Shown here one piece after another: positions 32,359-45,576 of a stretch of 64,000 nucleotides of DNA. The notes under the pieces are model-generated. The model saw nothing but the letters and a program-made list of their open reading frames with translations. It did no database searches and had not been told where the DNA came from. Source of the stretch: Psychrobacter piscatorii (GTDB lineage: Bacteria > Pseudomonadota > Gammaproteobacteria > Pseudomonadales > Moraxellaceae); NCBI RefSeq assembly GCF_904846415.1, contig NZ_CAJHAR010000001.1, positions 1 through 64,000 on the forward strand. The letters run 5' to 3'. Position 1 is the first letter of the stretch, and every line of letters begins with the position of its first letter. Made by a program: the position numbers and the translations under genes.

Positions 32359-33036
32359 AGCAGTTACCGTTATAGTCGTCGCTTCATTATATAGTGAATA
32401 GATACGCGGTGGAACAATTGCGCCATACTTACTAATCTTAAGTAGCGTAAGCGTTTGTCGTAAGAAAACAGATGTGGTTGCCGACTTATTAAATAAGAAC
32501 AGCGATTTATGATACTCATTAGTTAGAACATTAATTCGCTAATGACTGGAAAAGCATCAATAACTGTGCTAAAACAAACATAACGAAATACTGTGATACA
32601 TTTTTATCACAAAAGAAAATTATTCAGCAATGTGGTTATTGATTCTATATAATGCAGGAATATCATAAAGTTGGTTGCCTCGTAGTTTGAATGACGTTGT
32701 CACTGACAGTAAGTAAGTTCAAAATTTTTGAGTATTTTAAGAGATAATACGACTTTGCTTGATGGTTATAGAAGTAAAATATTGAGCCTAAAAAGCTAAG
32801 AACCGCACTCAATTTTATGAGCTTATTACGAGCAAAGTGCGTATAGTAACTCATGTTGACGCTGTGTTTGATGGGCAGACACTGATAAAAGGTATTCACT
32901 GTCATAAAATGTCTAATAAAATCTTAGTCTTTTGTATTGGTCTAACATTGACTGATATCATGACTTAAGATGATCGTTAGAGCTTTATATAGACAGAGAG
33001 CGTTACGAATAAATAGTCGTTCATAGGATAATGATA
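32359..33036. other. Intergenic region upstream of pilG
   Basis: About 680 AT-rich bases. It should hold the pilG promoter and, on the other strand, the promoter of the adaptor gene. A minus-strand frame of 80 codons (32663-32905) has one hydrophobic stretch but no ribosome site, and I do not call it a gene. Confidence 0.45.
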
Positions 33037-33414
33037 ATGGAAAATAATTTTGAAGGTTTAAAAGTAATGGTGATTGATGATTCAAAAACCATTCGCCGTA
33101 CCGCAGAAACCTTGCTACAAAAAGCGGGTTGTGAAGTCGTAACCGCTATAGATGGCTTCGATGCCTTAGCAAAAATTGTTGATAACAACCCAGATATTAT
33201 TTTTGTCGATATCATGATGCCGCGCTTAGATGGCTATCAGACTTGTGCACTCATAAAAAATAACCCTGATTATGCTAATAAACCCGTGATTATGTTGTCA
33301 TCTAAAGATGGCTTATTTGATAAAGCCCGTGGCCGCATCGTCGGATCTGATGAGTATTTGACCAAACCATTTAGTAAAGATGAGCTTTTTGATGCAATTA
33401 ACCAGTACCGTTAA
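33037..33414 (+). CDS. pilG: Twitching motility response regulator PilG
   Basis: Single-domain CheY-like regulator of 125 residues. It promotes type IV pilus extension when phosphorylated by ChpA. The acidic pair is in MVIDDSKTIRR, the phosphoacceptor Asp58 in IIFVDIMMPRLDGYQTC, and the conserved Lys in YLTKPFSKDEL. ATG at 33037 has AGGA 8 bases upstream; the ATG at 33031 is only 2 bases from it. First gene of the Chp cluster. The 183-base gap to pilH is longer than the others in the cluster. Confidence 0.95.
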   Translation: MENNFEGLKVMVIDDSKTIRRTAETLLQKAGCEVVTAIDGFDALAKIVDNNPDIIFVDIMMPRLDGYQTCALIKNNPDYANKPVIMLSSKDGLFDKARGRIVGSDEYLTKPFSKDELFDAINQYR

Positions 33415-33597: not shown

Positions 33598-33960
33598 ATG
33601 ACTACCGTTTTAGTCATTGACGACTCGCCATCAGAAATGGCGAAATTTCGCGACATGCTTTCCAAAAATAATTTTCAAGTATTAGAAGCATCAAATGGCG
33701 AGCAGGGCTGTCAGATGGCAGCTGATCACCTGCCAGATGTCATCTTAATGGATGTGGTCATGCCAGAAATGAACGGTTTTCAGGCTACGCGAAAAATCAC
33801 TCGTGGTAAAACCACCGCTCATATACCTGTCATTATGATTAGTACCAAAAATCAAGAAACCGATAGAGTGTGGGGCAAGCGTCAAGGTGCCAAAGAGTAT
33901 ATGAATAAACCAGTCGATGAAAATGGATTGGTCAATATGATTCGCAAAGTGATGGAGTAA
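33598..33960 (+). CDS. pilH: Twitching motility response regulator PilH
   Basis: Single-domain CheY-like regulator of 120 residues. In Pseudomonas PilH opposes PilG, acting as a phosphate sink or retraction signal. Acidic pair in LVIDDSPSEM, phosphoacceptor Asp52 in ILMDVVMPEMNGFQATR, Lys in YMNKPVDENGL. AAGGA lies 7 bases before the ATG. pilI begins four bases after its stop. Confidence 0.95.
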   Translation: MTTVLVIDDSPSEMAKFRDMLSKNNFQVLEASNGEQGCQMAADHLPDVILMDVVMPEMNGFQATRKITRGKTTAHIPVIMISTKNQETDRVWGKRQGAKEYMNKPVDENGLVNMIRKVME

Positions 33961-33963
33961 CTT

Positions 33964-34494
33964 GTGGCCTCTAGAGGATTTATTGAGCTTCTGCGTCTAG
34001 CAGACTTGGCACGTGCGCGCAAAAGTGGTCGCCGCGGTGGTCAAGAGTTTGATTGGCAAGGGGTGGTATTTGAGATTGGTGGGCAGCGCTTAGTTGCCCC
34101 TATGGGTCAGGTATCAGAGGTATTATCCATGCCAGAATATACTAGCTTACCTCTAGTAAAGTCTTGGATGCTAGGTATTGCCAATATTCGCGGACGATTA
34201 CTACCTCTGACGGATTTGTCACACTTTTTACAAGTGCCAAGTCGCTTGTCACAGCTAAGCCAGCGAAAAGTTATTGTAATCGATCATGACAATAACTTTT
34301 CAGGGCTACTAGTCGATCAAGTGCTTGGTATCGAACAATTCACTCAGGAACAATATCGCCCAGAAGCGATTGATTCCAATTCACCATTTGCACCTTATAA
34401 CCATGGTAAGTTTTTGAAAGACGAGCAGGAGTGGTACGTTTTCATGCCAAGCTTGCTGGCACAGGATCTGCAGTATTCAGATGCTGCGATATAG
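33964..34494 (+). CDS. pilI: Chemotaxis coupling protein PilI (CheW-like)
   Basis: 176-residue CheW-domain protein linking the PilJ receptor to the ChpA kinase. The CheW fold runs from about residue 28 (VVFEIGGQRLVAPMGQVSEVL) through GIANIRGRLLPLTDLSHFL and VIDHDNNFSGLLVDQVLGIEQF. It starts at GTG, three bases beyond the pilH stop, with GGAG 6 bases upstream inside the pilH end, so it is translationally coupled. Confidence 0.94.
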   Translation: MASRGFIELLRLADLARARKSGRRGGQEFDWQGVVFEIGGQRLVAPMGQVSEVLSMPEYTSLPLVKSWMLGIANIRGRLLPLTDLSHFLQVPSRLSQLSQRKVIVIDHDNNFSGLLVDQVLGIEQFTQEQYRPEAIDSNSPFAPYNHGKFLKDEQEWYVFMPSLLAQDLQYSDAAI

Positions 34495-34668
34495 TAATCG
34501 ATAATAGAAGACCTATTTATTCGGTAACGACAGATTGATAGCGACTGACACGATACAGTGGGATGTCAGTATTTATACAGGCTTTGCTAATCATTGTTTT
34601 GATAACAATAAGATTGTCAAAGTCAGTCACGATAAGACTTTGACGATTGTTTGAAAGGAATACGCAAG

Positions 34669-36084
34669 ATGAGTGATGTTAAAAGAAAACCTGTAGCTGG
34701 CGTGGGCCAAACAGCAGTAGATGGCAAAAGCTCTGATAGTACATGGAAATTGTTGTTAGGATTTTTTGTGCTATTAAGTTTGGCCTGTCTGATTTGGCTG
34801 ATCAACTCCCTATCAACGGTAAGTCAATACTTTGATAGCTTTGATCAATCGGTTGTTTTACCGGCGGCGATATTTGCAGTCGGAGCCGTGGGTATTATGT
34901 TTGCCTCATATCAGTTGCTCAAGCAACGTGGTGGATCGGAGCGTTTACTGATTGAAAAAGAAACGTTACGCCGCCGTCAAGAAGCAGAAGCAGAGTCTGA
35001 ACGAGCTCGTCAAATTCAAGAAGAAAACGAACGTAACCAGATCGCTATTCTACGCCTACTTGATGAGTTGGGTGATTTGGCAGAAGGTGATTTGACGGTC
35101 AATGCTACCGTATCAGAAGACTTTACAGGGGCAATTGCTGACTCAGTAAACTTCGCAATTGACCAATTACGTCAATTGGTCTTGGTTATTAACAGTACCG
35201 CTGACCGAGTTGCACAGTCTTCAGATCAAACGCAGATGAATGCTGTTGAGCTTGCTGAAGCTTCTGAACATCAAGCGCAAGAAATTGCTGGCGTATCAGC
35301 CGCTATTAATGAGATGACCGTGTCAATTGACCAAGTTTCGAATAATGCGTCAGAGTCTGCGACGGTTGCTCAGCGTTCAGTTGCCATTGCCTATAATGGG
35401 GCAGAAGTTGTACAGCGTTCGATTGAAGGTATGAACGTTATTCGTGATCAGATTCAAGAGACGTCTAAACGTATCAAACGCCTTGGTGAGTCTTCGCAAG
35501 AGATTGGTGATATCGTTGGCTTGATTAACGATATTGCAGACCAAACCAACGTTTTGGCATTGAACGCCGCTATTCAGGCATCGATGGCAGGTGAGGCCGG
35601 TCGAGGCTTTGCGGTTGTTGCTGATGAGGTTCAGCGTCTGGCTGAGCGTTCAGCGAATGCGACCAAGCAGATTGAAACCTTGGTAAAAACCATTCAGGCG
35701 GATACTAATGAAGCTGTTATGTCGATGGAATCGACGACATCTGAAGTAGTACGTGGTGCTCGTTTGGCAAAAGATGCTGGTGAAGCACTAGAAGAAGTAC
35801 AGAGCGTTTCTAACACGTTGGCTGACTTGATTCAGAACATCTCAAATGCTGCATTACAGCAGGCTGAATCTGCTGGTCATATTTCTCATACTATGAATAT
35901 CATTCAAGATATTACTTCACAAACCTCATCTGGTACGCTTGCCACAGCACGTTCTATTGGTGAGTTGAGTGAAATGGCTGCCGCACTACAAGAATCTGTT
36001 ACCGGCTTTAAAGTATCGAACGATGATGAATTGTTAGATGATGAAATGACTCACTCTGAACGAACCTTATCGGAAATTGTCTAA
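34669..36084 (+). CDS. pilJ: Methyl-accepting protein PilJ without a periplasmic sensor domain
   Basis: Receptor of the pilus chemosensory system. 471 residues, against about 680 for Pseudomonas PilJ. Helix 1 (about 24-46, [20 protein letters not shown]) and helix 2 (about 62-84, [20 protein letters not shown]) are joined by only about 15 residues. The PilJ-type periplasmic domain that senses pilin is therefore absent. A coiled coil and HAMP-like region follow. The signalling domain has the conserved tip around [18 protein letters not shown] and [23 protein letters not shown] at 34669 has AAAGGA about 9 bases upstream. Confidence 0.93.
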
Positions 36085-36258
36085 CCTTTTAGCTTGAATG
36101 TTGAAGCGGTATCGATACGTTTTTTACATAAGGTTTTAATTAAAATGCTGTATAGGTTCTGATGCCGTGCAGCAGTGATAATAGCAGGTGACGTGAACAA
36201 TCATACACAAGCAAAAAAGGCTCTATCTAATACATTTGAACCTGTATGGGGTGACGAG

Positions 36259-37131
36259 ATGATACAGGGCGATAGTGCTAATTTGCAGCAGTGGCAGCGA
36301 TATATAGAACAAGAGATTGGCTTCATATTGCCAAATATGCAGCTGCAGTGGTTGACCAATGCCATTGACCATACAGCAACGTTAAATGGACTCACTACCC
36401 AGCAGCTATGGCATCAGTTGCCTAAAGATAATGAAATTCGCCAGCAGTTGTTGGATAAGGTGCTGATTCATGAGAGTCGCTTTTTTCGCCATAGACCTTC
36501 TATAGCCTTTATCACAAAATATGCAGCAAATTATCAACGAGCAAATAAAACGGATACACCATTTCGCATTTGGAGTGTTGGTTGTGCAAGTGGGCAAGAG
36601 ACTTGGTCGCTGGCTATGAGTATGACAGCCGCGCAGTTGTCCAATCACGTGATACTGGGAACAGATGTGAGCGAGCAGGCGATTACAAACGCGCGGTTAG
36701 GACAATATGATAAACGGCAGCAGTCATTAATTCCTCAAAATTGTCAGCAGTTTGTTCACCCTTTGATCACCAAGAATGCAGGTACTGAGCTGAGTATGGC
36801 TGATGCTTCTAGTAAAGCAGAAAGGTCTATCAATACTCACGTTGATTGGCAAGTAGCGCCGGCTTTGCGACCTTATGTTAGCTTTGCTCTGCACAATGTT
36901 ATTGAACAAAAACCACCCACTTCGCATCTCCAAAATGTGATTATCTGCCAAAATATGCTGCTGTATTTTCGTAAATTTGATCAGCGTGATATTTTGGCAC
37001 GTTTATCAGAGCAGTGTGCGATAGAGGGATATATTATATTGGCTCCAGGTGAGGCGTTGTTTTGGCGTCCTTCGAATATGCGCCGTATTGCGCACCCACA
37101 AGTGAATGTGTGGCAAAAAATTAGTGCCTAA
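36259..37131 (+). CDS. pilK: PilK, CheR-type receptor methyltransferase
   Basis: SAM-dependent methyltransferase predicted to methylate glutamates on PilJ. The N-terminal helical CheR domain (QWQRYIEQEIGFILP) comes first. The Rossmann domain has ESRFFRHRPSI, the SAM loop IWSVGCASGQETWSLAM, ILGTDVSEQAI and NVIICQNMLLYF. ATG at 36259 follows GGGGTG at 5 bases and gives 290 residues, the usual PilK size. In-frame GTG codons at 36193 and 36175 would add 22 or 28 residues with weaker ribosome sites. It is followed after 30 bases by chpA. Confidence 0.9.
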   Translation: MIQGDSANLQQWQRYIEQEIGFILPNMQLQWLTNAIDHTATLNGLTTQQLWHQLPKDNEIRQQLLDKVLIHESRFFRHRPSIAFITKYAANYQRANKTDTPFRIWSVGCASGQETWSLAMSMTAAQLSNHVILGTDVSEQAITNARLGQYDKRQQSLIPQNCQQFVHPLITKNAGTELSMADASSKAERSINTHVDWQVAPALRPYVSFALHNVIEQKPPTSHLQNVIICQNMLLYFRKFDQRDILARLSEQCAIEGYIILAPGEALFWRPSNMRRIAHPQVNVWQKISA

Positions 37132-37161: not shown

Positions 37162-40100
37162 ATGAAAAAGCAGCCCAATGACATAGTGACGCTTGAGTGG
37201 TTGTCGCCACTGCTCAATCAGCAATTATCACAGATATCTGATGGCTGGCAATCAGGTGCTGAAATCGACAGTTATCAACAGATGACATCGCACTACCATC
37301 AGATTAGCGGCGCGCTGACGATGATTCGCTTGCCTCTACTAGCAGATATTGCCAATAAGTTGAGCCTTATGGCGAGCTTGGGGGAGAGTGATGATCTGTC
37401 TACTAGAAACTGTCAAATAGGCAAGTTTTCTCATAAGTTGTTACAACATGCGCTCAACCAATATGCGCGTGTAGGCAAATACAACCGTGCTCTAATAAAT
37501 AAAGCTACTAATGAGCTTGCCCAGATACTATCGCAACGAGGTGTGGAAGCAGACGCGTTTATAGATGCTACTGATACCCAGCACGATCATCGAAATAACG
37601 ATGATATTCATGAAGATATTGTTCATGAAGATATTGTCAATAGCATTCAGATCGCAGTACCCACGAGTAATGTCACGACCAATTTGGAAGATCAGCACTA
37701 TCAGCAGATGTTACTGGTGTGGCGACAGCAAGTACAAAAATTGCTGGTTGCCAATAGTAATCAGGCACCTGTTCTACAGGTTTTAGAAAAAGTTAGTCAA
37801 TATCTATGGCAGACCACTCAAGACAATGATTTACAGCGCCTATGGTATTTGACTCAATTGTGGCTGAGTGATCTTGCTCATAATGAAGCGCCGTTACCTG
37901 AATATTATGCGCCACTATTAGGTCAGCTTGATCGCGTCATAGAATCTGCTACTCAGCCAGCCCAGTTATCTTCGAGCCTTGTCAAAAGCTTAATCACCAG
38001 TGTCTATATCCAGCTCAGCTATTTAGAAAGTAGTAGCGAGCGAACTCAATCTATCCTTAATGACGTATCACAGCACGGGCCTGCGACCTCACGTTTTTTA
38101 ACGCGATTACTCAGTGAGATTGAGACCTTTATCTTTAATCTAGATAAGCCAGATACGCTAGTCAATCCTCTACGACATATACAAGGCCAGCTTGAGAGTC
38201 GAGGTTGGGTACAATACGCGTCGCAAGTCGAATCAATCCTTACCGATTTAGAGCAAGCACGCTTGTCAGAGGCAGAGTTTACGCAGCAGCAATGGCACAT
38301 TGAGCGCAAGCTACAAGAGCTCTATAGTGCTATTTATGATACCGAGCAGGCAATATCACTCAAAATCGGCGCTGCTGCTTCTTTTGCTACTATACCTGAA
38401 GCGTTTGATAGCAGTGATGTAAAGGGTGAAGATAGACATGAATCAGTTTCTAATGACAGTGATTTACGTGAGCTACGTATTGCCGTTGAGGAAATCAAGG
38501 AAGGCTTTAACGAGTATATACAACGTCAAGATATTCAGTCTTTACCAGCCATTGCTGACTTTGACAAAATTGCCCATGCTTTTGATGATATGGGACTGCC
38601 AGTCATTAGTGAGACGATAGAAAATATAGGTAGTATATTCACGCAACTGCTCACTCACGAGATTGCTGTACTTAGCTGGGATGTGACCCAAGCCTTGGCA
38701 GAGAGTCTGACCTCGATTGAATTGTTACTCGACTATCTTGCGCAACAAGTCTTTGATCAAAACTTACTGACGCAGGCAAATGAGTATGCAGCGAAAGCAT
38801 CACAGCTTCTTCATGCGTATGTGACATCACCAGAAACGATTAACGAGACATGGCTGACGCAAAAGCCAGTCGCGATGAATGTGCTTCGTTATGATGATAG
38901 TGGTGAGATCGCACCTGTGATCAGTTCAGATGATGAAACGGTGATAGCAGCGCAAGATACCACTGATACTAGTCCTAATGTAGAGAGTGACGCATTGCTG
39001 CGTGCTCGTGAACAAGTCAAGCCTGACAATTTTGAAGTTGATGAAGAGATTCGTGACATCTTTATCGAAGAAGTCACTGAAGTAATTGACGATCTGGAGG
39101 ATTTTCTGCCTATTTGGCAGCAGGATGCACAAGACTTAACACCATTGACTGAGGTGCGTAGAAGCTTTCATACCTTAAAAGGCTCAGGCCGCATGGTTGG
39201 TGCCTTTAGCATCAGTGAGATGGCATGGTCAATAGAAAACCTACTTAACCGTCTGTTGGATAAAACACTCCCTGTAACAGACGATGTCGTACGTCTGGTG
39301 ATAGAGACGGCGGAACGTTTGCCAGTGCTACTGACAGATTTTGCCGCACAACAATCACCGAGCTTTGATCCTGCTATTACTATTCTACAAAGTAGTAACC
39401 TAATGGCGCAGCAGCCTGTCAATGCTGGTTTAGATACGTTTGAGACTGGAATCACTGAAACATCAGTTGAAGTAGCGTTAGGTATCAATGACTCTGACTC
39501 AATGGATGATTTATCGTTAGAAACATTACTTTCGAGCGTTGATGCTGCTGCAGGAATAGATTCTGAAAGCAATAATACAAATGTACTAGCATCGCTATCT
39601 GGTTTAGAGATTCCAGCAGTACTTGTCCCGTTTATGCAAGAAACCGAGCAATTAGCAGCCGATGCGAATGATGCAGATCCTGATATTAAAGAGATATTTA
39701 TAGAAGAGGCCGAGGAAGTACTTGCCGAAATCGTACCTTTATATGAAGGTTGGCAGCTAGCATCGACTGACCTAGACGCCTTAAAAGATATCCGTCGCGG
39801 TTTTCATACCCTAAAAGGCTCTGGCCGCATGGTGGGCGCTAACTACACCGCCGAGCTAGCATGGGCGATAGAGAATATGCTTAATCGCGTATTGGATCAT
39901 AGTGTTGTTGTCTCAAGCGATATGGGTCAGCTGATGTCAGATGTATTGGCCGCTTATCCTGAAATGTTAGTAGCATTTGAAAACAATAGCCAAGATTACC
40001 CAGCTTTAGTGCCTTTATGGATTGCCTGCGCCAATGCCTATAGTAAGCAACAGGGTGATGCGTTTAGTTACTCTCGTTTATATGAGCAAGCAACAAGCCA

Positions 40101-43100
40101 TTCTGAAGATGACGCCGCGCAAGAGCCCGTATTGGCGACTAGCATAGACGAAGCCAATCCTACCTATGATGAGACTAATGAAGCGATAGACATGACGTTA
40201 CAGACCTTCCATTCTGTCAACGAAAAAATGGCAGAGGCAACCGTCGTTCTAACGCCTCAAAGCGAAGAAGAAAAAGCATTTTGTAAGATATTTATTGATG
40301 AAGCAGAAGAGTTACTTCATCACATTGATCAATTTGTCAGCGACAATCAAGATCAGCAGCTTATTGAGATAACGGATGAAATAGTACGTGCATTCCATAC
40401 GTTGCGAGCTGCATCTGGCTCCAGTGCTTTGGCTGCTATCAGCGAAGTTAGCGCAACAATAGAGCATAGTTTGGAGCTATTGCAGCAGCAAGATACAGCG
40501 ATGAGCGCCCAACATTTAGAGGCTTTAGCGCAATCTGCCAAGCTGATAAATGGTTATTTAAGTAGCTACAAACAAAATATTCAGCAGCGTAGTGTTATAG
40601 AAGAAGATTCACACAGTCAGCAAGAGCAAGACATAGCGTCATTGCAAGCAATGCTGGCTGAGCAGTATGTCATTAGTGATGCTGATGCGACCGTTGTTAC
40701 TGATAGCAAACCAACGATAGAAGAGCTATTAGATAATAATATCGATACGTTATTAGATGCTGAGTGGGAGTTAGAAGAGGCGCTTGGTCATGCTGAAACA
40801 GAACACAGTCAAGACTATATCGCGCAGCAAATTTCACAAATCACCTGTTTAATAGATAAAGCTCAAGCATTTCCAAAATTCATTACCGTTCTGAATGAGC
40901 TTGGTAATGCCTATAGATACCTGAGTGATAATATTGATAAAGCGAGAGATAGAGATATCCAATCTATTCTACTGTCGGGTCATGCCCAGTTGATTGGTCT
41001 ATTCGATGCGCTAGCTGGTAGTACGTCACTGAAAATAGACCAGCAGGTAATGAGTGATCTACAAGGTATCTATCAAAATGATAGCCTTGATGATAACGAC
41101 GAAGGCTTTGTAGTTCGAGCTATTTCGGCACCTGAAATCCAATTTGAAACGATTGATACGGATATTGAGCTATTAGAGATTTTCTTAGAAGAAGCTCAAG
41201 AGCTTGATAATGCGCTAGATGAGAGTTTCAATAAATGGCGTGACGATATTACTAATATCAACTCGCTAAAAGTATTACAGCGTCATTTGCACACCATTAA
41301 AGGTGGCGCACGGATGGCTGGCATTCGTAGTATTGGTGATCTAACTCACGAAGCAGAAAGTGTTTATGAGTCTTTTGTAGAAAACAGACGGGAGCCGACG
41401 ACACAATGGCTTGAGATTATGCAAATGGTGCAAGACACGATGTCGCAACAAGTGATGCATATCGTGAATCATAAAAAATCTTTTTTTACCTCAGAGCTTA
41501 TTGAGCAGTTAAAAGTACTTGAAAGGGAAAAAACCTTACCAGAAACGGTAGAGCTGATCATACCAGTACCGAAAAACTATTTTGAACCAGACGTCCAAAA
41601 CGTAGTGGAGGATAAAGCTAATATCAGTACTGAGACATCAGAATTGCTCAGCCTAGATACCATGATTAAGCAATCATGGGCTAATGGGTTGCCTGATCCA
41701 GACATATTAGCAGTGTTCTTAGAAGAGGCAGAAGAGCTTACCAATCGTAATAAATACCTGCACTTGTTCTTAAACGACACAAACAATACCACAGCATTAC
41801 AAGCGCTTCAGCGAGATCTGCATACCATTAAGGGCGGTGCCCGAATGGTGACTGCGTCCGGTATTGCTGATTTGGCTCATGAGATGGAGTCGGTTTATAC
41901 AGACTTTGTGAGTAACCGTCGTCCCCCTACTCAGAAAGTATTAGAATTGCTAGTTGCCAGTCATGATTGGCTTGCCGATGCCGTATTTATTCTTCAACAA
42001 AATGTGAATCCACCAACGCCTGCACTATTAATCGAGGCGTTAGAGCAGTTTGGGAGAAATCCTGATAGTCTCAAACAAGTTCCTAAAGAATCTCTACAGT
42101 CTCAGCGCGAAGCAATTTTGATTGCCAAAGAAAATCAAGACTCTCACTATCTTGCAAAAGATATTAGCGAGATGCCATCTATGTTCAGTAACACTAATGA
42201 GGAAGATGACAGCACTAGTAGTAATGAAATGATTCGTATCTCAGGTGGTCTGATTGAGCATATGATTAACTTATCTGGTGAGTCAGCGATTAACCGTGCC
42301 CGTATTGATATGGGTATTAGTAGTTTGACTAACAGTATTGAAGAGATGGGTACAACGGTACAGCGACTGGCAGATCAGTTACGCCGTATGGAGATTGAGC
42401 TTGAAGCTCAGATTTTGTCACAGATAGATGATGAGCTCATTGATAATGAGGATTTCGATCCACTAGAAATGGATCAGTATTCTTCACTGAATCAATTGTC
42501 AAAATCATTGACAGAATCTGCCTCGGATTTGGTTGATATCAACCATACTTTACTAGAAAAGACTCGTGACAGTGAAAGCCTATTGCTACAGCTATCGCGG
42601 ACACAGACTGAGTTGCAAGATGGGCTGATGAACTCGCGTATGGTGCCATTCACGCGTCTGACACCGCGTCTTGAGCGTATTGTTCGTCAGACCGCTAATG
42701 AGTTGAACAAGTCCGTTGAGTTGACAATCATTAATGCTGATGATGAGATGGATAGAACCATCTTAGAACGTATTACTTCACCGCTTGAGCATATGCTACG
42801 AAACGCTGTCGATCACGGTATCGAAACTACCTCGACGCGTCTCAAAGCAGGCAAAGAACGTAGTGGGCATATTACGCTTGAGGTCCATCGAGAAGGTAGC
42901 GAGATTGTTATCCAACTATCAGATGATGGCCGTGGTATCGATGTAGAGGCGGTACGCAATAAAGCTATCTCTCAAGGTCTTATTGATGCAAACGATGATA
43001 GTCTCTCTGATCTTGATATCATGCAATATATCTTCAATGCTGGACTGAGTACCAGTAAGCAAGTGACACAGATCTCTGGCCGCGGCGTTGGCATGGACGT

Positions 43101-44070
43101 TGTGATCAGTGAAATCCGTCAATTAGGTGGTTCCGTCTCGGTTGTTTCAGAGCTTGGCAAAGGCTCTAACTTCACGATGCGTTTGCCATTGACCGTCGCT
43201 GTGTCTGACGCTTTGGTCGTGCGCGCAGCAGATCGCTACTACGCCATACCATTGGTACAGATCGAGCGCGTGGTACGTGTCAACCCAGAAAAGCTATATG
43301 ATTACTATCAGTCAGATGCTGCCACCCTGAACTTTGAAGATACCGAATACCGTGTACGCTATCTAAACGAGATTCTATCAGGTAATAAACTGAATGAGCT
43401 GGTCGTCAATACCAACACCAGTCTGCCGCTGATTATTATTAAAAACCGTACGGGACAAAACATCGCACTACAAGTTGATCAAATTGCAGGATCACGTATT
43501 GAAGTGGTTGTTAAACCCCTAGGCCAGCAATTATCGAATATACCGGGTATTTCAGCTGCTACTATCATGGGCGATGGTTCGGTGATGCTCATTTTGGACC
43601 TGATTGCGTTAATGCGAAATGCGCAGCTGGTGAAGAACAGCTCGAAATCTGCCAGTGCCAAGCGAGGACGTATAGAGTCCAAATCGACGGTGTTAGTAGT
43701 CGATGACTCCGTGACCGTACGTAAAGTGACCTCTCGTTTCTTGGAGCGTCAAGGGTTCAATGTGGCGGTTGCAAAAGATGGTATCGATGCGCTCGAGATA
43801 TTACAGGACACGACGCCAGATATGATATTGCTAGATATTGAGATGCCGCGTATGGATGGCTTCGAGGTGGCGACTCAGGTCAGATTCAATAGTCGATTGC
43901 AACATATCCCAATTATTATGATTACCTCACGTACTGGCGAAAAGCATCGTGAGCGTGCTCTAGAGATTGGGGTAAATGACTATATGGGTAAGCCATTCCA
44001 AGAAAAAGAGTTGCTTGAAAAAATCCAAAGACTACTTGGTGAAGAGGTCAGCCTAACTAATGAAGGATAA
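37162..44070 (+). CDS. chpA: ChpA, giant hybrid CheA-type histidine kinase
   Basis: Central kinase of the pilus chemosensory system, 2302 residues (Pseudomonas ChpA about 2470). N-terminal degenerate phosphotransfer-like regions come first. Hpt modules follow with likely phospho-histidines at 670 and 882 (HTLKGSGRMVGA), 1079 (HTLRAASG, degenerate) and 1377 and 1554 (HTIKGGARM). Then come a CheA dimerisation helix pair (about 1690-1830), ATPase with RNAVDHGIE near 1880 and DDGRGID near 1920, a CheW domain (about 2010-2150) and a receiver with phosphoacceptor Asp2225. Two Hpt pairs look like internal duplications. TTAGGA lies 7 bases before the ATG. chpB overlaps its last 11 bases. Confidence 0.95.
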   Translation: MKKQPNDIVTLEWLSPLLNQQLSQISDGWQSGAEIDSYQQMTSHYHQISGALTMIRLPLLADIANKLSLMASLGESDDLSTRNCQIGKFSHKLLQHALNQYARVGKYNRALINKATNELAQILSQRGVEADAFIDATDTQHDHRNNDDIHEDIVHEDIVNSIQIAVPTSNVTTNLEDQHYQQMLLVWRQQVQKLLVANSNQAPVLQVLEKVSQYLWQTTQDNDLQRLWYLTQLWLSDLAHNEAPLPEYYAPLLGQLDRVIESATQPAQLSSSLVKSLITSVYIQLSYLESSSERTQSILNDVSQHGPATSRFLTRLLSEIETFIFNLDKPDTLVNPLRHIQGQLESRGWVQYASQVESILTDLEQARLSEAEFTQQQWHIERKLQELYSAIYDTEQAISLKIGAAASFATIPEAFDSSDVKGEDRHESVSNDSDLRELRIAVEEIKEGFNEYIQRQDIQSLPAIADFDKIAHAFDDMGLPVISETIENIGSIFTQLLTHEIAVLSWDVTQALAESLTSIELLLDYLAQQVFDQNLLTQANEYAAKASQLLHAYVTSPETINETWLTQKPVAMNVLRYDDSGEIAPVISSDDETVIAAQDTTDTSPNVESDALLRAREQVKPDNFEVDEEIRDIFIEEVTEVIDDLEDFLPIWQQDAQDLTPLTEVRRSFHTLKGSGRMVGAFSISEMAWSIENLLNRLLDKTLPVTDDVVRLVIETAERLPVLLTDFAAQQSPSFDPAITILQSSNLMAQQPVNAGLDTFETGITETSVEVALGINDSDSMDDLSLETLLSSVDAAAGIDSESNNTNVLASLSGLEIPAVLVPFMQETEQLAADANDADPDIKEIFIEEAEEVLAEIVPLYEGWQLASTDLDALKDIRRGFHTLKGSGRMVGANYTAELAWAIENMLNRVLDHSVVVSSDMGQLMSDVLAAYPEMLVAFENNSQDYPALVPLWIACANAYSKQQGDAFSYSRLYEQATSHSEDDAAQEPVLATSIDEANPTYDETNEAIDMTLQTFHSVNEKMAEATVVLTPQSEEEKAFCKIFIDEAEELLHHIDQFVSDNQDQQLIEITDEIVRAFHTLRAASGSSALAAISEVSATIEHSLELLQQQDTAMSAQHLEALAQSAKLINGYLSSYKQNIQQRSVIEEDSHSQQEQDIASLQAMLAEQYVISDADATVVTDSKPTIEELLDNNIDTLLDAEWELEEALGHAETEHSQDYIAQQISQITCLIDKAQAFPKFITVLNELGNAYRYLSDNIDKARDRDIQSILLSGHAQLIGLFDALAGSTSLKIDQQVMSDLQGIYQNDSLDDNDEGFVVRAISAPEIQFETIDTDIELLEIFLEEAQELDNALDESFNKWRDDITNINSLKVLQRHLHTIKGGARMAGIRSIGDLTHEAESVYESFVENRREPTTQWLEIMQMVQDTMSQQVMHIVNHKKSFFTSELIEQLKVLEREKTLPETVELIIPVPKNYFEPDVQNVVEDKANISTETSELLSLDTMIKQSWANGLPDPDILAVFLEEAEELTNRNKYLHLFLNDTNNTTALQALQRDLHTIKGGARMVTASGIADLAHEMESVYTDFVSNRRPPTQKVLELLVASHDWLADAVFILQQNVNPPTPALLIEALEQFGRNPDSLKQVPKESLQSQREAILIAKENQDSHYLAKDISEMPSMFSNTNEEDDSTSSNEMIRISGGLIEHMINLSGESAINRARIDMGISSLTNSIEEMGTTVQRLADQLRRMEIELEAQILSQIDDELIDNEDFDPLEMDQYSSLNQLSKSLTESASDLVDINHTLLEKTRDSESLLLQLSRTQTELQDGLMNSRMVPFTRLTPRLERIVRQTANELNKSVELTIINADDEMDRTILERITSPLEHMLRNAVDHGIETTSTRLKAGKERSGHITLEVHREGSEIVIQLSDDGRGIDVEAVRNKAISQGLIDANDDSLSDLDIMQYIFNAGLSTSKQVTQISGRGVGMDVVISEIRQLGGSVSVVSELGKGSNFTMRLPLTVAVSDALVVRAADRYYAIPLVQIERVVRVNPEKLYDYYQSDAATLNFEDTEYRVRYLNEILSGNKLNELVVNTNTSLPLIIIKNRTGQNIALQVDQIAGSRIEVVVKPLGQQLSNIPGISAATIMGDGSVMLILDLIALMRNAQLVKNSSKSASAKRGRIESKSTVLVVDDSVTVRKVTSRFLERQGFNVAVAKDGIDALEILQDTTPDMILLDIEMPRMDGFEVATQVRFNSRLQHIPIIMITSRTGEKHRERALEIGVNDYMGKPFQEKELLEKIQRLLGEEVSLTNEG

Positions 44071-45061
44071 TGCACGTGTTTTAGCACTGCGACAAAAAAA
44101 TAATAATGAGATTAAAGTGCTGGTGGTGGCAGAAGATCATCGCCAGCGTGTGGCTTTTTCGGACACCGTACGTAGTTGCGGTTTCACGCTTGTCGGCTGT
44201 GTATCATGGGCTCAGTGGCAAGAAAAAAGTGAGCTGTCTAATGTAGATATCGATATTTGGCTCATAGACAGTGATTATGATGACAGTGTTGCAACCGCAA
44301 CGACAGCTTCCAAATCTGCTGCTGTCTTGGTGGGTTTTAGTCAGGCACCCTATCTTAACGAAGCACAGCAATATGCCAAATGGCAGCGTAAGTTAAAACG
44401 CAAACTGGCGAAGCTACTGGCGCTACCAACCTTACTGGATACTGCTGCACATAAGAGTGATGATGCTGAAAGAAGTTGGCAATATGTCGTATTTCTGGGT
44501 GCATCTATGGGTGGTCCTAGTGCAGTAAAAGAGTTTTTAGATAATGTACCAGCGACACTGCCAGTGTGCATTTTATTGGCGCATCACTTCAATCAGACTA
44601 TGATTGGTACATTACCAAGGATACTTAATCGCCATAATGATTGGCGCTGTGAGGTTATCGCTTCCTCGCAGCGTTTGCGAGCAGGACAATGTCTTATAGC
44701 ACCGATCGATAAGCAGATTGTCTGTGATTCGGCAGGTCGGGTGATACTGTTGGAGCAAGCGTGGAGCGGTGAATATAAGCCTGCTATTGGTCAGCTTCTT
44801 AAAAATACCAGCGATGTTTATGGTAGCGATCTAATCAATATTATATTTTCGGGCATGGGTAATGATGGCTCTCAGTATTTGGATATGGTTCAAGACAACA
44901 ACAGCCAGTTGTGGGCGCAAGACCCTAGTCTGAGTGCATGTCCGAGTCAACCTCAGGCTATTATTGATTCAGGGTATTGTGGTTTCGTTGGTAGTCCGAC
45001 AGATTTGGCAAAAAAACTGACTGATTATATTGGTGAAAGGGCAGCAAGCCATTCACGCTAA
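44060..45061 (+). CDS. chpB: ChpB, CheB-type methylesterase
   Basis: 333-residue receptor methylesterase/deamidase, the counterpart of PilK. The C-terminal catalytic domain has Ser149 in LGASMGGPSAVKEF, the His in LLAHHFNQTM and the Asp in GMGNDGSQYL, which form the CheB triad. The N-terminal domain (about 14-105) looks like a receiver (VLVVAEDHRQRVAFSDTV) with IWLIDSDYDDS in place of a clean phosphorylation site, so control by phosphorylation is doubtful. Start overlaps chpA by 11 bases; a GTG slightly downstream, with AAGGAT before it, is an alternative. Confidence 0.9.
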   Translation: MKDNARVLALRQKNNNEIKVLVVAEDHRQRVAFSDTVRSCGFTLVGCVSWAQWQEKSELSNVDIDIWLIDSDYDDSVATATTASKSAAVLVGFSQAPYLNEAQQYAKWQRKLKRKLAKLLALPTLLDTAAHKSDDAERSWQYVVFLGASMGGPSAVKEFLDNVPATLPVCILLAHHFNQTMIGTLPRILNRHNDWRCEVIASSQRLRAGQCLIAPIDKQIVCDSAGRVILLEQAWSGEYKPAIGQLLKNTSDVYGSDLINIIFSGMGNDGSQYLDMVQDNNSQLWAQDPSLSACPSQPQAIIDSGYCGFVGSPTDLAKKLTDYIGERAASHSR

Positions 45062-45078: not shown

Positions 45079-45576
45079 ATGAAACAAATTTTGAAACACT
45101 CATTTGAAGCGGTAAGTTTACTGACCACGAATAATGGTATGCTTGATGTGACTATCGTGCCAGCATCTAACCAACCTGATTGGATCATTCCGAGCAGTTT
45201 GATTTTGAGCGTCGAGGATTATCAAGAGCGTATATCCACGTATCAGTGGCAAGAGCAAAATCTTGCTGTCTTTCACTTGTTACCGCAAGATAGAACACCA
45301 GAGAAAATCATCATACTAGAGGGTAACACCACTGAGCATCGATTTGCTTTGCAAACGGCAGGTGAGCTGCGCCAATTACAAGCTCGTATTTCTGACGTCA
45401 AAGATACAGAGCTTCCCGAGCAGTTTGTAGATACTGGTGTTGATAAAATAGAAGGGCAGTCTGACGAAAACGTTGTGCTCTCTTATCTGTATCAGACTGT
45501 TATGATTGACGACAATGTTTATTTGGTACCAGATTTAGACAAAATTGCGCATCATTTGGTTAATTTAGATAACTAG
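45079..45576 (+). CDS. chpC: ChpC, CheW-like coupling protein
   Basis: 165-residue second coupling protein of the Chp system. The CheW-like fold is visible in WIIPSSLILSVEDYQERISTYQWQEQNLAVFHLLPQDR and in IIILEGNTTEHRFALQTAGELRQLQARISDV. It starts 17 bases after chpB and is the last gene of the cluster; chpD and chpE of Pseudomonas are not present. In Pseudomonas ChpC connects the kinase to receptors other than PilJ. Confidence 0.85.
   Translation: MKQILKHSFEAVSLLTTNNGMLDVTIVPASNQPDWIIPSSLILSVEDYQERISTYQWQEQNLAVFHLLPQDRTPEKIIILEGNTTEHRFALQTAGELRQLQARISDVKDTELPEQFVDTGVDKIEGQSDENVVLSYLYQTVMIDDNVYLVPDLDKIAHHLVNLDN

Follow-up and report, generated by a model that had tools for sequence, protein, structure and literature searches.

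The chemoreceptor PilJ has lost its periplasmic sensor repeatedly and separately among Psychrobacter relatives. The form analysed here lies in a window of 64,000 nucleotides, i.e. the whole stretch of Psychrobacter piscatorii DNA that was studied, and the first-pass annotation had seen in it a possible distinct branch of surface sensing. We put in its place a sensor lost several times over, in a receptor that stands alone and yet remains constrained.

Psychrobacter forms a natural series of full, half and no domain, whose comparison tests directly what the domain does; whether the periplasmic domain of PilJ is the surface sensor, and how PilJ senses surfaces, is the question that this series addresses. 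It tells besides that a sole chemoreceptor can repeatedly lose its ligand-binding domain (LBD) and yet stay under strong selection. No prior description of a recurrent PilJ domain loss was found in searches of the open-licence PubMed Central literature.

A hairpin receptor within the pil-chp cluster

In the window the genes follow the order pilG, pilH, pilI, pilJ, pilK, chpA, chpB, pilJ thus holding the PilJ position of the cluster:

33031..33414, + strand: pilG, response regulator (PF00072, synteny)
33598..33960, + strand: pilH, response regulator (PF00072, synteny)
33964..34494, + strand: pilI, CheW-like coupling protein (PF01584)
34669..36084, + strand: pilJ, 471 aa, periplasmic domain absent, sole MCP found in the genome (PF00015, E 1.3e-42; hydropathy; profile search)
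34750..34806, + strand: transmembrane helix 1 (TM1), residues 28-46 (hydropathy; model helix 19-51)
34807..34848, + strand: periplasmic loop of 14 residues, site of the type A deletion junction (hydropathy, alignment)
34849..34905, + strand: transmembrane helix 2 (TM2), residues 61-79 (hydropathy; model helix 58-139)
34906..35043, + strand: juxtamembrane coil from TM2 to the HAMP-like region, residues 80-125 (continuous model helix)
35365..35913, + strand: MCP signalling domain, residues 233-415, which includes the conserved tip for kinase control (Pfam, rate comparison)
36175..37131, + strand: pilK, CheR-type methyltransferase (PF01739)
37162..44070, + strand: chpA, hybrid kinase of 2302 aa with Hpt domains, HATPase, CheW and receiver (domain search)
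44060..45061, + strand: chpB, CheB-type methylesterase (PF01339)
45079..45576, + strand: open reading frame of 165 aa at the chpC position, conserved in the genus (synteny)

The Chp pathway had been described as otherwise complete, which holds for pilG, pilH, pilI, pilK, chpA and chpB; however, the frame at the chpC position (45079-45576) matched neither CheW nor any other family, and a PDB profile search gave nothing below E 0.6. Its assignment to ChpC is unconfirmed by family and structure searches, and the frame is kept as a candidate for a strongly diverged ChpC. The order of the cluster is preserved in the loci read.

The pilJ frame opens with the ATG at 34669, AAAGGA standing at 34654, codes over 34669-36081 and ends at 36084 without interruption. 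This open frame, and the same short form in separately assembled relatives—Psychrobacter sp. Ps6 (99%), P. piscatorii and P. pacificensis (93%)—exclude a frameshift or a deletion unique to this sequence. The orthology is indicated by the best matches in 19 genomes of the other families of the order, with 61-76% cytosolic identity and frames mostly of about 700 aa.

The PilJ/HBM-type periplasmic LBD of about 260 residues is missing from the protein by Pfam, hydropathy and ectodomain profile alike. The two helices had been placed about 15 residues apart; hydropathy gives 14, and the AlphaFold model agrees on the hairpin, with a helix at 19-51, a break of 6 residues and a helix at 58-139 (mean pLDDT 75; its pTM of 0.35 suits it to the order of the helices only). 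The protein thereby has the architecture of CetA-type hairpin receptors, i.e. two helices, a short loop and no LBD, and is best filed as an LBD-less variant of PilJ, not as a standard PilJ. The MCP signalling domain is the single Pfam family above cut-off, with no Pfam match to HAMP; a HAMP region is nevertheless presumed, and the helix break at 140-148 of the model is consistent with a HAMP connector. As PF13675 (PilJ N-term) is silent on the tested full-length Psychrobacter and Moraxella forms too, its absence from this PilJ is uninformative, and the comparison of folds was used instead.

Distribution and repeated loss of the domain

PilJ was matched at E <= 1e-90 in 306 of the 348 genomes of the family survey. 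It is present in 101 of 105 Psychrobacter genomes and absent from the other 4; 13 of the 101 carry the full domain, 3 about half of it and 85 none, the last count taking in three broken or doubtful copies (G030, G016 and G321). Direct reading of the N-terminus gave the architecture for 110 loci, among them some that are two views of one gene; for the remainder it was deduced from frame lengths and an ectodomain profile. This profile, built from the full-length forms, matches in 16 of the 105 genomes of the genus, always within the PilJ frame, and has no match over the window's genome; a separate gene supplying the domain is thus discounted. The cytosolic identity to the window's PilJ is 87-94% for full-length, 75-77% for half-domain and 78-100% for domain-less Psychrobacter forms. 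pilJ seems interrupted in two genomes, G030 (L110) and G016 (L030, L226).

Whether the loss is common to Moraxellaceae, as the first-pass annotation had asked, receives a divided answer: it extends over most of Psychrobacter and 4 of the 6 genomes of g29, a group that we take to be Moraxella, but not over the whole family. In g35, which we also take to be Moraxella, the frames are long in all 10 PilJ-bearing genomes; in g23, presumably Acinetobacter, the LBD is kept, and PilJ is long in all the matches listed except that of G162, whose frame is of 609 aa. At the level of the class, a PilJ-like match at E <= 1e-80 occurs in 61 of 143 genomes, including that of the window and one other member of the family. 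Among the 59 outside the family a membrane hairpin is found in three (G370, G411 and G384), two short frames being left out of this count, G441 and G373, the latter at a contig edge. The PilJ of G388, from another family of the class (L254), carries a Tar-like domain where the PilJ domain would be expected (PF02203, with a sub-threshold E of 1.6e-4), likely a domain swap within the same receptor. Besides, the record BMPS01000032.1 (L245), titled Streptomyces cinereus JCM 3040, bears a Moraxella-type pilJ and is probably mislabelled or contaminated.

The full-length Psychrobacter ectodomain (model with mean pLDDT of 91) has as best structural matches 7zjr and 8wdf, both of P. aeruginosa PilJ, with TM scores of 0.80 and 0.79 at 18% identity. 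Since it folds like the P. aeruginosa domain, the full-length state is the older one, from which the short form derives. In a tree of 25 long ectodomains, g35, the pair G341/G342 and the main Psychrobacter group hold together; two Psychrobacter, G294 and G317, branch outside the rest of the genus, G338 is placed unlike in the rpoBC tree and g29 is very distant. Single exchanges may have taken place.

At least 12 changes between the three architectures are required by a protein tree of 60 genomes built on rpoBC; its well-supported branches force 8 for short PilJ and 7 for long PilJ, the broken pilJ of G030 being scored as short. A single loss marking one branch is ruled out by this tree. The recurrence of the short form, together with the at least five junctions described below, speaks against a distinct branch of surface sensing. 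Furthermore the P. aeruginosa domain is unneeded for twitching, according to PMC10896506, so that no new sense has to arise when it is lost.

The deletions differ in their ends. Type A, found in the window and in most species, ends after a D-F-N-Q-like motif and lacks, relative to the full-length Psychrobacter forms, 231 residues in nearly all rows; in the window's row and some others the automatic gap placement is ambiguous, and the type was read by eye from the shared motif and the length. Type B (P. coccoides, G022) retains the final turns before TM2, with 225 residues gone, and type C (P. aestuarii, G337) lacks 235 residues, while types E (G350) and F (G021) retain most of helix 1; the junctions of the short forms of g29 are different again from the Psychrobacter types. 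Ten classes (A to J) were counted initially, but some may be derivatives of others (D of A, C of B, G of F, J of I), and A and H are no more than one residue apart. The alignments show at least five in-frame junctions that differ clearly (A, B/C, E, F/G and I/J), besides one partial deletion.

Rows of type A lie dispersed among full-length relatives, and one type A clade is rejected on the cytosolic tree, from which G030 was left out (AU p 3.5e-25). For the N-terminal and TM2 segments taken alone a single type A clade is not rejected (p 0.27 and 0.41), these segments being short and of little power. The simplest account of this scatter would be that species have exchanged the 5' half of pilJ; a regain of the domain through recombination would fit it too, and convergent deletion is conceivable.

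A lone receptor under constraint

All 26 genomes searched with PF00015 gave a single MCP above cut-off, with a further, sub-threshold match in G298; one MCP per genome tested makes PilJ the only receptor. The median dN/dS of its cytosolic part is 0.021 for short, type A forms (83 pairs) and 0.017 for full-length forms (7 pairs), at high dS. The slowest region is the tip, with a mean difference of 3% in type A (24 short-form genomes) and 5% in long forms; one row of the alignment A4 was left out for a stop, and G030 does not enter the rates. The kinase-control function is thus under strong purifying selection.

The type IV pilus machinery seems kept in the genus: the PilB model is matched at E <= 1e-150 in 104 of the 105 genomes, in 95 of them above the family cut-off, and the weaker matches may be other ATPases of the class. 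In five genomes (G005, G311, G318, G339 and G023) the sole matches to the PilB model are frames of 431-484 aa, which match from about profile position 161-174, so that the N-terminal domain of PilB seems missing or very diverged there; G035, a relative of most of the five, has no match to the model at E <= 1e-150. A class III cyclase occurs once in the window's genome. Over 30 genomes it is matched in 20, in several architectures and in one case below cut-off, with no pattern by eye relative to the architecture of PilJ.

The adaptation enzymes are less steady. pilK and chpB are both present in 10 of 25 loci with a domain-less or half-domain PilJ against 9 of 13 full-length Psychrobacter loci, and the loss of the domain shows no association with the loss of these enzymes (the independent-pairs test was not significant). 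Among these 38 Psychrobacter genomes, 13 are without both genes and 6 without one, irrespective of the PilJ domain; over the tree sample with outgroups pilK changes 12 times and chpB 13 times. For these tree-based tests of gene content, loci below 9 kb, genomes without marker sequence and G030 were left out, 38 Psychrobacter remaining, and the values of the window were entered by hand from its domain searches. A strict methylation-site motif has one match or none per protein (17 proteins). Where adaptation is kept without an outside sensor, this suggests internal tuning or a cytosolic input.

Possible workings of the short receptor

We favour, at a probability of about 0.6, that the short PilJ is a sensor-blind activator and scaffold which keeps the signalling of ChpA on for pilus control. 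An in-frame deletion of the HBM-type LBD from the ancestral full-length receptor produced the window's PilJ. The remainder would be a module for kinase control, anchored in the membrane, which keeps PilI and ChpA together in a signalling array and needs no periplasmic ligand. The Pil-Chp output—control of the pili by PilG and PilH, and cAMP where a cyclase is present—would be kept at an internally tuned level, by way of methylation (PilK, ChpB), the assembly of the array and possibly cytosolic partners. We infer that PilJ is active in a ligand-independent manner and that neither chemotaxis nor surface input passes through a PilJ ectodomain here; this suggests that the pilus control system of Psychrobacter mostly runs without an outside signal.

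P. aeruginosa and Acinetobacter baylyi supply the experimental background, no PilJ phenotype of Psychrobacter having been found in searches of the open-licence PubMed Central literature. According to PMC10896506 and PMC12632253, P. aeruginosa makes a stable PilJ when residues 39-303 are removed, with wild-type twitching but with chemotaxis lost; the mutants of that study are said to show raised cAMP, and the deletions 74-273 or 80-273 nearly abolish twitching. In A. baylyi the deletion of pilJ leaves the Pil-Chp-controlled placement of pili intact, as reported in PMC9596432. The natural forms lose nearly the whole domain, which brings them nearer to the 39-303 construct, and the placement of pili in A. 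baylyi is independent of PilJ; both lead to the reading as a sensor-blind activator and scaffold.

The likeness to these systems has its limits. The window's PilJ shares with P. aeruginosa PilJ the kinase-control domain and the place in Pil-Chp, and the full-length Psychrobacter forms share the fold of the LBD, but the window's form is without it; moreover P. aeruginosa has 26 predicted MCPs (PMC12632253) versus one in the window's genome. The mutant without 39-303 (PMC10896506) likewise keeps both helices and an intact cytosolic part with the LBD gone; the Psychrobacter form, however, is natural, conserved across species and, to judge from the numbers, has a somewhat longer loop. A. baylyi is a relative within the family whose pili are placed without need of PilJ, but it has no pilK, chpB or chpC according to PMC9596432. 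In g23, presumably Acinetobacter, the LBD is kept and the two loci that we read gave no pilK or chpB match; many Psychrobacter are the reverse.

Three observations go against a sensor-blind receptor. The adaptation enzymes persist in many domain-less lineages, which is odd if nothing is sensed. The juxtamembrane stretch is slow in type A, which may point to a newly arisen constraint close to the membrane. Finally, by analogy with the laboratory constructs, a short remnant of the ectodomain can harm twitching, and the type A cut lies between the two kinds of construct.

The first-pass annotation had concluded that the receptor must sense something in the membrane or cytosol, or take input from another protein. 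The domain being missing, some other input is indeed needed, if any, but a hairpin acting as membrane sensor lacks a clear sign. The other protein, in a reading that we find possible though doubtful, would be a stand-alone Aer-type PAS protein that acts in trans on PilJ as CetB is proposed to act on CetA. A PAS search found such a protein in 14 of 23 genomes; that of the window's genome, of 166 aa on contig C8, matches the PAS structure 8dik of the aerotaxis receptor at E 1.9e-37 and keeps the N, RHPD and W positions, which we take to serve in FAD binding. Its gene belongs to a group (L267:1967-5066, G000 contig C8) that codes for a roadblock/LC7 protein, the Aer-type PAS protein and a phosphonate-binding-like protein of cytosolic appearance, three genes whose order recurs at L281, and for two further proteins of unknown kind.

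At E <= 1e-25 the PAS protein occurs in 78 of the 105 Psychrobacter genomes (78 of the 101 with PilJ, none of the 4 without), in 5 of the 6 g29 genomes, in two of g23, one by a weak match, and in 9 of the 22 g35 genomes (9 of the 10 with PilJ, none of the 12 without), one of these being a partial frame of 100 aa. PilJ is thus present in 94 of 94 carriers of the stand-alone form, a co-occurrence that carries no correction for kinship. The pairing, the Aer-type match and the lack of a second MCP above cut-off in the 26 genomes checked favour a bipartite receptor; so does the precedent of Campylobacter, whose hairpin receptor CetA is thought to be served by the PAS protein CetB (PMC2628428). C. 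jejuni likewise has an LBD-less hairpin receptor and a stand-alone PAS protein, but there, as in PMC2628428, cetA and cetB are neighbours and co-transcribed, whereas the Psychrobacter PAS gene is unlinked, on contig C8 with pilJ on C1, and its role is that of a candidate only. No PAS match was found among the 12 proteins scanned in the cluster and the downstream flank of pilJ.

Nor does the PAS protein follow the loss of the domain in Psychrobacter: it is present with 10 of 13 full-length and 68 of 85 domain-less forms (Fisher p 0.72), and absent from 17 domain-less and all 3 half-domain genomes. In a sample of 50 genomes with outgroups, three more outgroups being left out, it is even associated with full-length PilJ (Fisher p 0.004), the tree-based pairs test being not significant. 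In six other genomes (one g34, five g36) the PAS match lies inside much longer proteins, and the five of g36, which are without PilJ, carry the related PAS within proteins of 780-940 aa. The PAS protein as a cytosolic input to PilJ is thus a possible lead, not a finding. In its widest form, to which we give little credence, the Pil-Chp system of Psychrobacter and Moraxella would have turned inward-looking, the hairpin PilJ being read in trans by an Aer-type PAS energy sensor. If true, a PilJ read by PAS would make the periplasmic domain dispensable and explain its repeated deletion while the adaptation enzymes often stayed.

It is improbable, in our opinion, that the two helices themselves detect inner-membrane pilin, the state of the membrane or temperature. 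Intramembrane-sensing histidine kinases are a class whose membrane helices serve as sensor, and PilJ of P. aeruginosa contacts pilin; this contact, the two helices with a loop of fewer than 25 residues and the adaptation enzymes retained in the window's genome are what such a sensor would have. However, between type A pairs the share of differing sites is 46% for TM1 and 54% for TM2, with 8% in the cytosolic part, against 44%, 36% and 7% in full-length forms; relative to the cytosolic part the rates in type A versus long forms are 5.7 versus 6.5 for TM1 and 6.7 versus 5.2 for TM2. These figures come from pairs at 2-15% cytosolic distance, unmatched by kinship, with G341 and G342 left out and alignment gaps over TM1 in three type A rows. 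Behind TM2, a juxtamembrane stretch of 12 residues evolves somewhat more slowly in type A (3.7 versus 6.0), which favours a sensor near the membrane, but the helices themselves are not constrained as expected of an intramembrane-sensing receptor, a conserved membrane face is absent and the length of the loop varies across deletion types. The helices thus appear, by sequence, to lack a clear sign of a conserved sensing surface.

That the receptor is in decay, chemotaxis being unselected in these bacteria, we hold for very improbable: the apparently broken pilJ of G030 and G016, the 4 genomes of 105 without PilJ and the coming and going of pilK and chpB would agree with it, but the dN/dS stays about 0.02, the tip differs by 3% on average over the 24 short-form genomes, nearly all genomes listed have an uninterrupted frame and the loci read keep the order of the cluster.
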